Made by a program: the position numbers and the translations under genes
Assembly: GCA_945883815.1 (NCBI GenBank)
Contig: CAMCYJ010000003.1
Location: 1-64,000 of the forward strand
Direction: 5' to 3'
Length of the DNA: 64,000 nt
DNA from: Akkermansia muciniphila
GTDB taxonomy: Bacteria; Verrucomicrobiota; Verrucomicrobiia; Limisphaerales; UBA9464
In this document: piece after piece, positions 1,824 through 9,368 of the stretch
Layout of the letters: each line of letters starts with the position of its first letter
Position numbering within the stretch: position 1 is the stretch's first letter
The notes under the pieces: model-generated
Told to the model about the DNA's origin: nothing
What the model saw: only the letters and a program-made list of their open reading frames with translations
Database searches by the model: none

Positions 1824-4800
1824 TCAGTGGGAACGTTGACTTTCCAATTCTGGAATCAGCACTTGGAGTTCGGTGTTTGCTGCCCGGAGGAGTTCGTCGA
1901 TCAGGTCCCATCGGCACGTGGATGCCTGGTTTTCCAGGCGTCCAGCCGCAGATCCCAATCGGCGGGCCCCCAGATTATTCGCGCTGCCCTTCAGGGTGTG
2001 TGCGGCCGCCTGAACCCCGACGGTGTCCCGGCGTTTGAAGGCGGCCGTCGCCTCCTCCAAGCGGGAGGGCGTGTCGCGCAAGAACAGGTCGATGATCTCG
2101 GTGACTGGGTCCGGTTCTCCGTCGAATCGAAGGGTTCGCAAGGAATCCAACAGGGCGGGATCGAGAACGGGCATCGAGTCGGAGGGTGATGCTTCCGAGG
2201 TTTGTGGGATCGGTTTCGAGGCAGCCGAGGGCGATGCAAGAACCTCTGGTAGAAAGGGCGGAGTAGCCCCGACCGCCCGATTCAACATGTTCGGCAGTTG
2301 ATCGAGATCCAGCGGCTTGGTGAGGAATTCATCCATTCCGGCAGCCAGGCATTTTTCCCGGTCACCCGCCATTGCATTGGCCGTCAGGGCGATCAAGAAG
2401 GCGGGCGGACGGTTGCCCAACTTCCGGTCCGCCTCCAGGCGGCGGATCTCGCGGGCCGTTTCGTAGCCGTCGAGTTCGGGCATCTGACAGTCCAAGAAGA
2501 CGGCGTCGAACGGTTCCCGTTGCAAGGCCTGCAGCGTCTCTCGCCCATTGGAAGCGACGGCGACGCTGTGTCCTAGGCGTCGGAGTTGGGTGACTGCCAG
2601 TTTCTGGTTCACGAGATTGTCTTCGGCCAACAACAGTCTCAGCGAACGGCCGGTCGGAGTGTTCGTCTGCGGAGTGGAATCCGTGGGGACAGGTCCGCTC
2701 AGGAGGCTTTCTCCCGCCGCCAGCGCCCGGAGCGCCTCCCGCAGTCGGGATTGCTTGAAGGGTTTGACCAGGTGTCCGGCGATACCCACCGTCCGCAACA
2801 AATTGGGATCCGGGCGCTGGGAGACCGCCGCTACCAGGATGATTCGCACGGACGCGATGGCCGCGATGCAGTGCACTTCATGAGCCACGGTCAAGCCGTC
2901 CATATCTGGAAACTGCAAGGCGATGAACGCGGCATCGAACGGATGCCCCGTCTCGGCCGCCTGTCGCAGGGCATCGATGGCGGCGGCGGCTGTGGTCTCC
3001 CGGGTGACCCGGGCTCCACACCGGTTCATCTCATGCTCGAAGGACGCGCAGGTGGCCGCATGGGCATCGGCGATGAGCAGCTTCAGGGGGCAGGGAAGCG
3101 GCGCAGCCGGTGCGGGACTGACGATGTCGAAGACCGCCGTCATGGTGAAGGTCGAGCCATGGCCCGGCTCACTGGTCACCTCGATGTCGCCGCCCATCCG
3201 ACGTGCCAGTTCGCGGGAGATCGACAAACCCAAGCCGGTGCCGCCGAAGCGGCGAGTGGTTGAACCGTCGGCCTGGGTGAACTCCTGAAAGATCCGGCCG
3301 AGGGCGGTCGGTTCGATGCCGATACCGGTGTCTTTTACCCGGCAGGCGATCCGACAGCGGTCCCCCTGGATTTCCAGAACCTCGATGCCGACAAGGACTT
3401 CTCCCTTCTGGGTGAACTTGATGGCGTTGCCGAGGAGGTTGGTCAGCACCTGCCGGATGCGTCCCGGGTCTCCACGGAGCATCGCGGGCAGGTCATGATC
3501 GATCTTGGTAGCCACCTCGACCCCCTTGGCCTGGGCGATTTCGGCCAAGAGTTCAACGGTGTCCTCAACGATGGGCCGAAGGTCGAACTCAATGCTCTCG
3601 AAGGCCAGCTTACCGCTCTCGATCTTGGAGAAATCGAGGATGTCATTGAGCACCTTGAGCAGGTTTTGGGCGCTGTGGAGGACGGTGCCCGCGTACTCGC
3701 GCTGCTCCAGGTTGAGAGGCGTGTCCAACAGCAAGCGGGCGAATCCGATGATGCCATTCATCGGAGTGCGAATCTCGTGAGAGGTGTTCGCCAGGAACTG
3801 GGATTTGGCACGAGCCGATTCGATGGCGACGTCGCGCGCGGCAGCCAACGCGGCATTGGCCTCGTTCAGATCCTTCTCGGCCTGCTTCCGAGCCGTGATG
3901 TCTTCGACCGTGCCCTCGTAGTACAGGAGCTTTCCGGTAGCAGGATCCCGCACGGCGCGAGCGTTCTCGCTGATCCAGATCTTCCGGCCATCCTTGCGAT
4001 ACACCTCGCTGTCGAAGTGGTCGATCTTGTCATTTCGATTGAGCAGTTCCTCGAAGCGATCGCGCTGTTTCGGATCGACGTAGAGTTGGTGTTCGATGTC
4101 GGTCCGACTGGCCAGGAGTTCATCGACGGTGTCGAAGCCGTACATCTTGGCCAGCGCGAGATTGGCGTTGAGATAACGTCCGTCCGGCGAGGTTTGGAAA
4201 ATGCCGTCGACTGCATTTTGGACCAGGCCTCGGTAATTGGCCTCGGTGCGTTCCAGTTGTTCGCGCGCTGTCTGCAGTTCGGTGATGTCCCGCGACAGCC
4301 CAAAGGTGCCCACGATCTGTCCGTCCGGCGACCGCAGGGGCATCTTGCTGGTCAGCGCCCAACATACCCGGCCATCCGGTTGGCTTTCCTTCTCCAAGCG
4401 GCCCAGGGTGGGTTGGCCCGTCTGGATGATCGCCAGTTCGTCCGACCGGGCGGCATCGGCGTACTGGCGGTCGAAGAAGTCGTGGTCGGTCTTCCCGATT
4501 AGTCCGTTCGGGTCTGCGACGCCCACTCGGTATGCGAGCGCACGGCTGGCTCGGGTGATCCGGGAATCGAGGTCTTTGAAGTAAATGGCATCCGGTGCGT
4601 GCTCGAGCAGTGCATGAAGCAGATCCCGTTCATGGGCCAACTGCTCCTCGACCCGCTTTTCTTGGGTGACTTCCCAGAAGCTGCCTTGGAGGCCCACGGG
4701 TTGGCCGCTGGCATCGAGCAGCAGGGTCTTGATGACATGGAACCAATGACGCTGACCATCGGGGGTCACGTTGACCTCGGTCTTCTCCAGCGAGTTGCCG

Positions 4801-5474
4801 GTGCTGATCACCTGACGGTCATCTTCGACGTAGCGGCGAGCCAATTCCTCCGGGAAGAGGTCGAAGTCGGTGACGCCGATGAGTTGGCTCTTTTGGCGTT
4901 TGACTGTTTTACAGAAGGCCCCGTTCACGAAGGTGAAGCGGCCGTTGAGATCTTTGCGGAAGATGTTCTGGGGCAGGGATTCCACCAACGCCTGGAAGTA
5001 GGCTTCGTTGTCGCGCAGGCGTGTCTCCGTTTGGCGTTGCTGTTCGGTGGTGGCCGCCAGATCAGTGGCCTGTCGCCGAAGCTCCAGATGAACCATCACC
5101 TGCCGGGCGACGGTCTGAAGACCCGCCCGTTGGCCGGGGTTCAGTCGCCGCGGAGATCGATCCAGCACGGCGATCACGCCGGCCACGCTACCGGAGGGGA
5201 TGCGCACCGGGAGGCAAGAAAGCCAGCGCCATCCGTCCGGCAACTGGGTCTGGGCATCGCGCAGTTCGATCCAGTCGTGGATGCTGACTGCGACCCGAGA
5301 GATCACCGGCAACACTGCATCGATGAACTCCGGAGAGCATCCGGTATGTCCAGCTGGAACCCAGTCAGGGCATTCTTCCAGCACCACTATGGCCGCTGGT
5401 GCAAAGCTGACTTGAGCCGCCAGATTGGCCAGTTCATTCAGCGTGCCACCGGGTCTGGGGGCGGCGTTCATCAT
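1824..5474 (-). CDS. Hybrid sensor histidine kinase (GAF-like, PAS x3, HisKA, HATPase, two REC, Hpt)
   Basis: 'FLANTSHEIRTPMNGIIGFARLLL' H-box, 'GTGLGLSISRELARRMGG' G-box, REC 'DAVFLDCQMPELDG', Hpt 'AAHTLKGSANNLG'. Confidence 0.93.
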   Translation of the reverse strand: MMNAAPRPGGTLNELANLAAQVSFAPAAIVVLEECPDWVPAGHTGCSPEFIDAVLPVISRVAVSIHDWIELRDAQTQLPDGWRWLSCLPVRIPSGSVAGVIAVLDRSPRRLNPGQRAGLQTVARQVMVHLELRRQATDLAATTEQQRQTETRLRDNEAYFQALVESLPQNIFRKDLNGRFTFVNGAFCKTVKRQKSQLIGVTDFDLFPEELARRYVEDDRQVISTGNSLEKTEVNVTPDGQRHWFHVIKTLLLDASGQPVGLQGSFWEVTQEKRVEEQLAHERDLLHALLEHAPDAIYFKDLDSRITRASRALAYRVGVADPNGLIGKTDHDFFDRQYADAARSDELAIIQTGQPTLGRLEKESQPDGRVCWALTSKMPLRSPDGQIVGTFGLSRDITELQTAREQLERTEANYRGLVQNAVDGIFQTSPDGRYLNANLALAKMYGFDTVDELLASRTDIEHQLYVDPKQRDRFEELLNRNDKIDHFDSEVYRKDGRKIWISENARAVRDPATGKLLYYEGTVEDITARKQAEKDLNEANAALAAARDVAIESARAKSQFLANTSHEIRTPMNGIIGFARLLLDTPLNLEQREYAGTVLHSAQNLLKVLNDILDFSKIESGKLAFESIEFDLRPIVEDTVELLAEIAQAKGVEVATKIDHDLPAMLRGDPGRIRQVLTNLLGNAIKFTQKGEVLVGIEVLEIQGDRCRIACRVKDTGIGIEPTALGRIFQEFTQADGSTTRRFGGTGLGLSISRELARRMGGDIEVTSEPGHGSTFTMTAVFDIVSPAPAAPLPCPLKLLIADAHAATCASFEHEMNRCGARVTRETTAAAAIDALRQAAETGHPFDAAFIALQFPDMDGLTVAHEVHCIAAIASVRIILVAAVSQRPDPNLLRTVGIAGHLVKPFKQSRLREALRALAAGESLLSGPVPTDSTPQTNTPTGRSLRLLLAEDNLVNQKLAVTQLRRLGHSVAVASNGRETLQALQREPFDAVFLDCQMPELDGYETAREIRRLEADRKLGNRPPAFLIALTANAMAGDREKCLAAGMDEFLTKPLDLDQLPNMLNRAVGATPPFLPEVLASPSAASKPIPQTSEASPSDSMPVLDPALLDSLRTLRFDGEPDPVTEIIDLFLRDTPSRLEEATAAFKRRDTVGVQAAAHTLKGSANNLGARRLGSAAGRLENQASTCRWDLIDELLRAANTELQVLIPELESQRSH

Positions 5475-5564: not shown

Positions 5565-7706
5565 TCAATAGGGCAGTGGGAAACGGGCCGTCAGCGCCTT
5601 CACACGATCCCGCACCTTTGTCGCCGTCGCCGGATTGGCGATGTCCAGAAGCACCTCGCTGATCATGTCAGCGACGGCCAGCATTTCCGGTTCGCGCATG
5701 CCACGGGTCGTGACCGCTGGGGTTCCCAATCGAACACCGCTGCCCTCGAAGGGGGATCGGGTCTCGAAGGGAATGGTGTTCTTGTTGGTCGTGATCCCGG
5801 CGGTGTCCAGGGCCAGTTGGCACTGCTTGCCCGTCAATCCACGGGCCCCGACATCGACGAGCATCAGGTGGTTTTCGGTTCCGCCGCTGACGATGCGGAA
5901 GCCGTTGCGCTTCATGCCCTCGCACAGGGCCGCTGCGTTGCGCACGATTTGCTCTTGATAGGCCACGAAACTGGGTTGCAGTGCCTCGTGGAAGCACACG
6001 GCTTTGGCCGCGATGACATGCATCAGGGGGCCGCCCTGGATGCCGGGGAAAACCTGCGAGTCGATGGCCTTCGCGTACTGGGCCTTGCACAGGATGAGTC
6101 CGCCGCGCGGGCCTCGCAGGGTCTTGTGGGTGGTCGTGGTGACAAAGTCGGCGTGCGGCACCGGGCTCGGATGAACCCCAGCAGCCACGAGGCCGGCGAT
6201 GTGGGCGATGTCGGCCAAGAGCATCGCGCCGACCTCACGGGCGATTTCACCCATGCGCTGGAAATCAATACGGCGCGAGTAAGCGGAAGCTCCGACGGTG
6301 ATCATCTTGGGCCGGTGCTCGCGCGCCATGCTGGCGAGTTGGTCGTAGTCGATGAGTTCATTGTCCTTGCCGACGCCGTAGTGGACGATTTCGAAGAACT
6401 TGCCGGAGAAGTTGGCCTTGTTGCCGTGGGTCAGGTGGCCGCCGTGGCTCAGGTCCATGGTGAGGAGCTTGTCCCCGGGCTTCAGCATGCTGAAATACAC
6501 GGCCATGTTGGCCCCGGAACCGGAGTGAGGCTGCACGTTGGCATGTTCGGCACCGAAGAGTTGCTTGGCGCGGTTGATGGCCAGCGTCTCCGCTTCGTCC
6601 ACGTACTCGCAGCCCCCGTACCATCGCTTGCCCGGGTAGCCCTCCGCATACTTGTTGGTGAGCACGCTGCCCTGGACCTCCATGACAGCCGGGCTGGTGA
6701 AGTTTTCGCTGGCGATGAGCTCGATGTTCTCGAGCTGGCGCGACCGTTCGTGGCGGATGATGTCGGCGATCAGCGGGTCAACGGATGCGAGTGATGTGGA
6801 CATGTCTGGTTCGATCTTGTTCACGCGGCGCTCGTGGCGACCGCCTTCAAAAGGGGTTTGGATGAAATTTTCGACGATCTCAAGGGCCTGCTGTGGCGAA
6901 ACGAATCGCGCGCCCAGGCAAAGGACGTTCGCATCGTTGTGCTTTCGGGCAAGTGACGCTCCCTCGATGTTGTGCACCAGTGCGGCGCGAATTCCGGAAA
7001 CCTTGTTGGCGGCAATGCTGATGCCCACACCGGTCGAGCAGATGAGGATGCCGAAGTCGACTTCTCCAGATGCCACCTTGCGGGCCACCGCCTGAGCGTG
7101 GTCGGGGTAATCGGTGGATTCAGGGCCGTAGGTTCCCTCGTCAAGCACCTGAAGCCCCATCCTGGAAAGCACTGGGACCAGGGTGTGCTTCAGGGCAAAT
7201 CCGGCGTGGTCCGAGCCGATGGCCACGGTGAGTGTCGGCCGGGTCGTGCCGCCCTCCCGGATGAATCGGACGGCTGCATCGACCGCATGGCGGATCTGGT
7301 CCCGGCAATCCAGGTAGCCTTCGAGGGGTCCCCCAATGGGGTCATGGATATCGAGGTCCAGGTCGCTGACGTTTTCCTCGAACTCGCGGAGGACGAATAG
7401 TTTTTCAGCCGCCTCTGGGTACAGCGAGACAATGCCCTCCACATGGCCCCGGGTGAGACCGAAGATGTAGTCTGCTTCACGGACCAGTCGTCCGGTCAGC
7501 ATTTGGGCGCGGTGTTGCGAGATGTCCATCCCCATCTGACGGACCGCGGTCACCGAATGCGGGCTCACCGCCTGACCATTCAGGGCGTTGATACCGGCTG
7601 AAATCGCCTGCCATTCCGACGAATCACCCAGGGCTTTTCGGGCCAACGCGGCAGCCATGGGGCTGCGGCATGTATTGCCGGTGCAGACGAACAGCAGGGT
7701 CTTCAT
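5565..7706 (-). CDS. Trifunctional fusion: low-MW phosphatase (YwlE-like) - ribose-5-phosphate isomerase B - serine hydroxymethyltransferase
   Basis: Single uninterrupted 713-aa ORF: '[15 protein letters not shown]' (CX5R P-loop), '[13 protein letters not shown]...[23 protein letters not shown]' (RpiB), '[37 protein letters not shown]...[10 protein letters not shown]' (GlyA). Confidence 0.92.
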
Positions 7707-7826: not shown

Positions 7827-9230
7827 TTAATGCTGGCTCCAACCCCAGCGACGGCTCAGGGGCCAGAAGACCCAGCCGGATTTGCCGACGATGCGCTCCT
7901 GGGGGAAATCCGGCACCGGCCACATCCGGGAGTCGGAGCTGTTCATGGTGTTGTCACCCAAACAAAAAACATGGCCGGGCCGGACCGTCACCTCGTCCTG
8001 GGAATTCCGGAAATTGGAGGTGCTCTGCGTCATCGCCTCCAGGCGGGATTTTTGCTGGGCCCAGCGCCCGTTTTGGGAACCGTCGGTTGGCGCCCATGCG
8101 GCATTGGTGAATTCGCGCCACACTTTGACCTTTTCCTCTGCGATGGCGCTGAGCTGCTGCGCCGCCGAGGCGTCGCGGCTGTGCAGGAGTTCGTACTCCG
8201 CCTCGTGGGTCGAGAACCAACTGCCTTCAGCGAATCCAATCCCATTCACGTGGCCGGAATAGCTGCTGGAAACCGGATGCTTGGTCGGGTCGAAACTGTA
8301 AACGTCTGCGAAACCGGGAGTGGTGGTGTCCAAGCGCTGTCCGTTGATCACGACATGACGGTCGTCGCCGATCCGGACTTTTTCTCCTCCGAGGCCCACC
8401 AGCCGCTTGATGTAGTGGGTATTGGCCGTCATTCCCGGATGCTGCATCGACTTGAACACCACGGTGTCTCCACGACGCGGGTTCCGGAAATTGTAGGTGA
8501 GTCGGTCGACCATGAGCCGGTCGCCCGATTTGACCCGGCAACGGATGACCGGTTCTCCCTTCTTGAAATAACGCTGGGGTAGGGTGCCTTGGTCGTTGGC
8601 CAGACCCATGTGGCGCATGAAGTCGTTGGGTCCCTCGCTCATGGAGGTGTTCACGGCGTACATGACCCGCCCGACCTGGACATCGAAGGACTTCCAGAAA
8701 GTGCTGGTGATTCCACCAGAACCCGCCGAAGGGCCTACTCCGCCCAATTCGCCATCCTGCTCGGCGATCACCTCGTAGTAGTGATAACCAAAGAGTGCCC
8801 ATTCCACAGCCTGGACCGCCAGGTTCGGGACGGACTGTCCCGTGTAGCGGAGGTCTTCGCAGGTGATGCCATTGAACGTGGGTTGAGCCGAGCCCGTGGG
8901 AATGGCCATGGGCTGGAAAAAGAATTGGCGGAAGGCGAACAGCACGATCCCCATGGTGAGCAGGCCTTCGACATTCTCGCGCATCGAGGCGTGCGCATAG
9001 GGCATCAGCGAGGTCTGTGCAGTGGCCTCCAATCGGGTCATCGCCGCGGCGATGTCGTCTCGGGTCCCGCTGCTCCGCATGTTCTCGAGGTGGCTGATGG
9101 CCGCTTCCAACTCGGTGATGCGCGCCGGCGTCAGGAGATCGCGCTGATGGTCCAGGATCTTCTGGGCCTGTTCGGCCAGATGGCCCGCTTCTCGATAGCT
9201 TTTCCAGAATACGTGGCGAAATGGTGACAT
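7827..9230 (-). CDS. lepB: Signal peptidase I with an enlarged periplasmic domain
   Basis: 'FRQFFFQPMAIPTGSAQPTFNG' (Ser box), 'RRGDTVVFKSMQHPG..THYIKRLVGLGGEKVRI' (Lys box), C-terminal 'VFCLGDNTMNSSDSRMWPVPDFPQERIVGKSGWVFWPLSR'. Start placed at MSPFRHVFWKS; ORF is open to 9275. Confidence 0.88.
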   Translation of the reverse strand: MSPFRHVFWKSYREAGHLAEQAQKILDHQRDLLTPARITELEAAISHLENMRSSGTRDDIAAAMTRLEATAQTSLMPYAHASMRENVEGLLTMGIVLFAFRQFFFQPMAIPTGSAQPTFNGITCEDLRYTGQSVPNLAVQAVEWALFGYHYYEVIAEQDGELGGVGPSAGSGGITSTFWKSFDVQVGRVMYAVNTSMSEGPNDFMRHMGLANDQGTLPQRYFKKGEPVIRCRVKSGDRLMVDRLTYNFRNPRRGDTVVFKSMQHPGMTANTHYIKRLVGLGGEKVRIGDDRHVVINGQRLDTTTPGFADVYSFDPTKHPVSSSYSGHVNGIGFAEGSWFSTHEAEYELLHSRDASAAQQLSAIAEEKVKVWREFTNAAWAPTDGSQNGRWAQQKSRLEAMTQSTSNFRNSQDEVTVRPGHVFCLGDNTMNSSDSRMWPVPDFPQERIVGKSGWVFWPLSRRWGWSQH

Positions 9231-9368
9231 GCGGCAACGGGAAGGTCTGGCAATTCGGCGCGGGGATCTAGTCAAAATCCAAGCCGGGCCTCCAGCAGGA
9301 TTTCTGAGACCTCACCCGCAGCACAGTTTGCTTCCTAGGCGTCGCGGAATCCGACAGGGTGACCCCGA

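Follow-up and report, generated by a model that had tools for sequence, protein, structure and literature searches.

Arginine phosphorylation has been studied mainly in Gram-positive bacteria. In Bacillus subtilis, ywlE, ywlF (rpiB) and glyA are neighbors, in an order identical to that of the three enzyme domains described here, and encode separate proteins. YwlE and PtpB of Bacillus and Staphylococcus (PDB 4pic and 1zgg) share with the first of these domains the LMW-PTP fold, a CTGNTCRS P-loop, a DP acid loop, and coexistence with McsA-McsB. A Thr at the P-loop position directs YwlE/PtpB to phosphoarginine (pArg), while T11I shifts the enzyme toward pTyr and pNPP by raising its activity on them (PMC8001253). 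Unlike its counterparts, the phosphatase we describe is fused to RpiB-GlyA, and it has an Ile where YwlE has a Phe after the catalytic Asp-Pro. One further deposited chain, 4egs, carries the name "Ribose 5-phosphate isomerase RpiB," but its 180 residues align with the phosphatase domain, with no GlyA part indicated. This name suggests that a phosphatase-RpiB fusion has already been seen elsewhere.

We examined a window of 64,000 nucleotides (the whole stretch of DNA that was analyzed) from a fragmented, 91% complete genome of the Verrucomicrobiota. Positions 5565–7706, on the minus strand, hold a single intact open reading frame of 713 amino acids, with its ATG at 7706 and its stop at 5567–5565. 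Since the stop-to-stop frame, at 717 codons, exceeds the ORF by only four codons, ATG 7706 is the natural start. The phosphatase domain (residues 1–152; 7251–7706) matches Pfam LMWPc (PF01451) over residues 5–142 with 95.5 bits (cutoff 23.2). The RpiB domain (residues 160–298; 6813–7229) matches LacAB_rpiB over residues 161–298 with 192.2 bits (cutoff 24.7) and exceeds the cutoff of the NCBIfam equivalog TIGR01120 (171.7 versus 138.65 bits). The GlyA, or serine hydroxymethyltransferase (SHMT), domain (residues 307–713; 5568–6788) matches SHMT over residues 307–682 with 549.4 bits (cutoff 27) and NF000586 with 633.4 bits (cutoff 335). Signature residues of all three enzymes are present: C8, R14, S15, and D122; D166, H167, C223, H256, and R290; and K528. 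Thus, the first-pass annotation, which had described one 713-residue ORF with three complete enzyme signatures and no stop or frameshift, was confirmed by Pfam, NCBIfam, and the signature residues alike, the strand being minus. Its reading of the P-loop as C-T-G-N-T-C-R-S also holds (C8 to S15; 7662–7685), with Thr12 at position 5 (PX5) of the CX5R loop.

Comparison of 87 distinct full fusions revealed strong conservation of these residues. Phosphatase residues C8, R14, S15, D122, and P123 are kept in all 87, as is C13, and so are the SHMT residues E334, D499, H502, and K528, the PLP lysine of the THK motif (6123–6125). RpiB residues D166, H167, C223, H256, N257, R290, and R294 are conserved in 81–85 of the 87.

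Structure prediction of the fusion with AlphaFold, supplied with 42 fusion homologues, gave three confidently folded domains separated by low-confidence linkers (mean pLDDT 83.6, pTM 0.58). Confidence was low at residues 153–157 of linker 1 (residues 153–159; 7230–7250) and 299–303 of linker 2 (residues 299–306; 6789–6812). The domains are thus strung like beads, and the model does not place them confidently in any fixed relative position. SHMT structures dominated when the model was compared with the PDB using Foldseek. The GlyA structures 3pgy, 1kkj, and 4n0w share the whole enzyme with the fusion, at about 60% identity in the structural hits, while the RpiB structures 1o1x, 3he8, and E. coli 2vvr share all catalytic motifs at 140–150 bits. 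In contrast to these free enzymes, the fused RpiB lacks free ends, having the phosphatase on one side and GlyA on the other, and RpiB takes the place of the free start of GlyA.

The flanking genes, identified by eye, lie on the same strand. A signal peptidase I-like ORF (7827–9275) lies upstream, terminating roughly 120 bases before the fusion start, and a large PAS/histidine kinase/receiver/Hpt hybrid kinase of 1216 amino acids (1824–5474) begins 91 bases downstream of the fusion stop. A promoter scan found nothing, and terminators were at chance level.

Because the window derives from a fragmented genome, the fusion could in principle be an assembly or frameshift artefact. However, it recurs in dozens of independent metagenome-assembled genomes (MAGs) of Verrucomicrobia, Pedosphaera, and Limisphaerales, in a single-cell genome (L067), and in single-contig genomes from other families of the class (G130, G136, and G324), leaving an artefact a negligible prospect that we rejected. 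Within the window's order, 55 of 59 sampled genomes, including the window's own, contain an uninterrupted one-frame match that spans the whole protein or almost all of it (in two of the 55 it ends early, at positions 670 and 630), and all but two of the 24 families carry the fusion. The four exceptions are a match in two pieces on different contigs (G002), a match that begins at residue 130 inside an open 2586-codon frame (G027), and matches to residues 160–713 and 1–408 interrupted by one TAA (G044) and one TAG (G058), respectively. The RpiB-GlyA part of the G027 frame (C370:12959-14719) may belong to a larger fusion or to a long chance frame. No stop occurs at the junction homologous to linker 1 in any of the 87 fusions. 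These data speak against an indel or stop between the domains, and the fusion protein is almost certainly made.

Across a phylum sample of 388 genomes and the loci we fetched, five layouts occur: phosphatase, RpiB, and GlyA all fused; a separate phosphatase adjoining fused RpiB-GlyA; fused RpiB-GlyA with no phosphatase beside it; phosphatase fused to GlyA without RpiB (L096–L098, L101–L103, and L186–L193, including the two 0.9-Mb single-contig genomes G094 and G115); and separate genes (L109, Nitrospirae, and some others). At L109, as in B. subtilis, the genes stand in the order of the fusion but are unfused. In a GlyA tree built quickly from 147 rows, the RpiB-GlyA fusion needs three changes, while phosphatase attachment needs 16, and the triple state needs at least 10 on well-supported branches. 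With few changes in the one and many in the other, RpiB and GlyA became fused early in the phylum, and the neighboring phosphatase was joined or released repeatedly and is fixed in the window's order. The first-pass annotation was right in that the three enzymes are genuinely fused. At some loci (L114-116 and others), the phosphatase and RpiB-GlyA genes share one frame with a single stop between them; since our sampling favored same-frame cases, we discarded these as ordinary tight operons.

We asked if the fused metabolic domains are decayed or redundant copies. In the window's own genome, which is 91% complete so that only-copy status is provisional, the fusion provides the single RpiB match (195.9 bits) and the only GlyA detected. 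We found no standalone GlyA or RpiB and no second SHMT there, and RpiA was absent from this genome and from all 59 sampled genomes of the order, although control genomes do give a match. We rejected decay or redundancy for this genome.

Some relatives do possess a second RpiB-like match. In genomes with a standalone RpiB (175–189 bits), the fused RpiB has fallen to 33–122 bits, as in families f28 and f33, or is missing. Catalytic residues of the fused RpiB are broken in L137, L138, L139, and L130, from genomes that also encode a standalone RpiB (G130, G112, G100, and G136), and the G210 frame (L194) is itself broken within RpiB. Genomes with phosphatase-GlyA fusions carry RpiB as a free gene or, in G316, RpiA in its stead. 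Constraint on the fused RpiB thus seems to hold where no other Rpi exists and to be lifted where one does. Since it decays or vanishes where a free RpiB exists, the fused RpiB of the window is very probably a working enzyme, and we have high confidence that both its RpiB and GlyA domains are active.

The first-pass annotation had also raised the possibility that translation starts internally, at [10 protein letters not shown] / [11 protein letters not shown], and yields separate GlyA. As no stop separates the domains, phosphatase and RpiB could be made only as attached to GlyA, and an internal start could only add free GlyA. The candidate is Met301 (6804–6806), after which the sequence looks like a normal GlyA N terminus. 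Within the window's family, 31 of the 33 fusions retain it, amid variable neighbors and through a two-codon insertion. Production of both full-length fusion and free GlyA, which would make GlyA partly independent of the fusion, is consistent with this conservation. Against it, Met301 is missing from two members of the family (L050 and L088), and 8 of the 87 fusions have no ATG, GTG, or TTG at the RpiB-GlyA junction. No Shine-Dalgarno-like motif precedes Met301; since none precedes the gene's own ATG either, this absence says little. Synonymous-site conservation upstream of Met301 was set aside as a sign of a ribosome-binding site, because only three codons were usable. Overall, we consider dual products unlikely, though worth keeping in mind.

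To which family does the phosphatase belong? Its nearest sequence in the PDB is the YwlE arginine phosphatase 4pic (95.1 bits), nearly tied with 4egs (94.9 bits), and arsenate reductase (51 bits) and Wzb (47.6 bits) are more distant. A YwlE-like identity, as originally proposed, is thus upheld. The accompanying argument that the P-loop Thr marks pArg specificity fared less well: Thr12 is present in the window, but among the 87 fusions position 12 is Thr in 38, Ile in 27, Val in 20, and Ser in 2. Because many fused relatives (47 of 87) have Ile or Val instead, the residue argument fails for the fused family as a whole, and we rejected it as decisive evidence. A second, distant LMW-phosphatase-like stretch lies elsewhere in the same genome (L145:1297-1701, contig C18); it scores 55 bits, has a CTGNSCRS P-loop, and may resemble arsenate reductase.

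A search of the genome for an McsB kinase was positive. The putative McsB (L144:4225-5337) passes NF002194 (387.5 bits, cutoff 385) and falls below the cutoff of 500 for the separate Bacillus-type model NF053707 (375.8 bits). Directly upstream of it is an McsA-like gene, which matches NF053706 over 161 residues with 131.6 bits (cutoff 210). PF00217 matches occur in 58 of 59 genomes of the order and 367 of 388 in the phylum sample, and an mcsB homologue has been named in a Methylacidiphilum transcriptome (PMC8024496).

Phosphatase and kinase tend to be lost together. A strong phosphatase match (E of 1e-12 or better) is missing in 75 of the 88 genomes that lack a kinase match or have only a weak one (E above 1e-40), versus 24 of 300 with an intact kinase. 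Over all 388 genomes, the odds ratio is 66 (p 9e-45), calculated with genomes treated as independent, score thresholds set after the data were seen, and tables transcribed by hand. Much of this loss falls in lineages whose phosphatase is unfused. We also built a profile from 38 phosphatase sequences and ran it on 80 chosen genomes, counting by hand. The profile separated a YwlE-type orthologue (126–189 bits) from a paralogue (mostly 55–107 bits). The orthologue, scored at over 120 bits, was present in 28 of 32 kinase-intact genomes but only 1 of 48 with a degraded kinase; this one exception is G323, and the reverse exceptions are G307, G283, G423, and G159. In genus g35, which belongs to the same class, the orthologue occurs in 11 of 12 kinase-intact genomes and none of 11 kinase-degraded ones, and the three free phosphatases that we fetched from this genus (L206–L208) carry CTGNTCRS. 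Such contrasts within a genus or family (g35, f34, f51, and f60) are the more robust part of the co-loss evidence. Since the phosphatase disappears across the phylum when McsB decays, a role in removing pArg is indicated. The proposal of a pArg substrate gains support from the encoded McsB with its adjoining McsA-like gene and from the shared losses, which are stronger evidence than the weakened Thr argument, and we think it likely that the phosphatase works against McsB marks.

Alternatively, the phosphatase could be an ordinary protein-tyrosine phosphatase of the Wzb/PtpA kind that partners BY-kinases, its link to McsB being incidental. BY-kinases (TIGR01007) score over cutoff in 57 of 59 genomes of the order, so tyrosine substrates are possible, and the Ile/Val P-loops of many fused homologues are typical of pTyr enzymes. 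However, phosphatase presence is independent of BY-kinase across the phylum (71 lost; odds ratio 1.08, p 0.77), whereas it tracks McsB even among BY-kinase-positive genomes (odds ratio 88). BY-kinase is not supported as the deciding partner for phosphatase presence. The nearest solved relative is YwlE, with Wzb far off, and the separate, more distant LMW-PTP paralogue (about 55–107 bits) persists in genomes where the YwlE-type enzyme and McsB are lost or degraded. A BY-kinase partnership is thus improbable as the main function, and we favor McsB marks as the target.

Taken together, we consider it fairly probable that the gene encodes one trifunctional polypeptide uniting housekeeping RpiB and SHMT with a YwlE-type eraser of McsB marks. 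From homology and co-occurrence, we infer the activities, the pArg specificity, and any benefit of fusion. The C-terminal domains would be the cell's housekeeping ribose-5-phosphate isomerase and serine hydroxymethyltransferase, joined since early in the phylum. Ribose-5-phosphate and glycine/one-carbon units are inputs of purine synthesis, and RpiB and GlyA would jointly supply them. The N-terminal phosphatase most probably strips phosphate from arginines marked by McsA-McsB; its gene would have adjoined rpiB-glyA before being joined, or re-separated, several times. Fusion may fix co-expression and stoichiometry and tether the phosphatase to an oligomeric carrier, and no chemical coupling among the three reactions would be required. 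The first-pass annotation had gone further, suggesting a possible link among the three activities, but we found no evidence for channeling or cross-regulation.

The fusion might instead be selectively neutral, adjacent operon genes having lost their stop codons with nothing depending on the joint. The same gene order occurs unfused at L109 and half-fused in 46 rows of the GlyA tree, and the roughly 16 changes in phosphatase attachment would fit this reading. Retention of the RpiB-GlyA joint over most of the phylum, and of the triple fusion in nearly every genome sampled from one order, at 63–100% identity, argues otherwise. Neutrality is a possibility we take seriously while leaning somewhat against it.

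We found no paper on the fusion in the open-access literature searched. Novelty is limited, as the three domain families and the gene neighborhood are known and a partial fusion possibly so. What is unusual is the order-wide union of a signaling eraser with two essential metabolic enzymes, together with genomic evidence for arginine phosphorylation in Verrucomicrobiota. More tentatively, the phylum may possess a Firmicutes-like pArg system whose eraser is, in whole orders, built into a polypeptide with the only RpiB and only SHMT, which would tie protein quality control to nucleotide-precursor supply. The phylum also offers natural controls, in the form of separate genes, half fusions, decayed fused RpiB, and fusions from which RpiB is deleted, and within genus g35, where McsB and YwlE have been lost together, species with and without the pair could be compared directly. 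In this genus, family f53, and others, PF00217 matches are very weak (E 1e-5 to 1e-35), and these McsB-like kinases look degenerated, possibly into non-kinase relatives.
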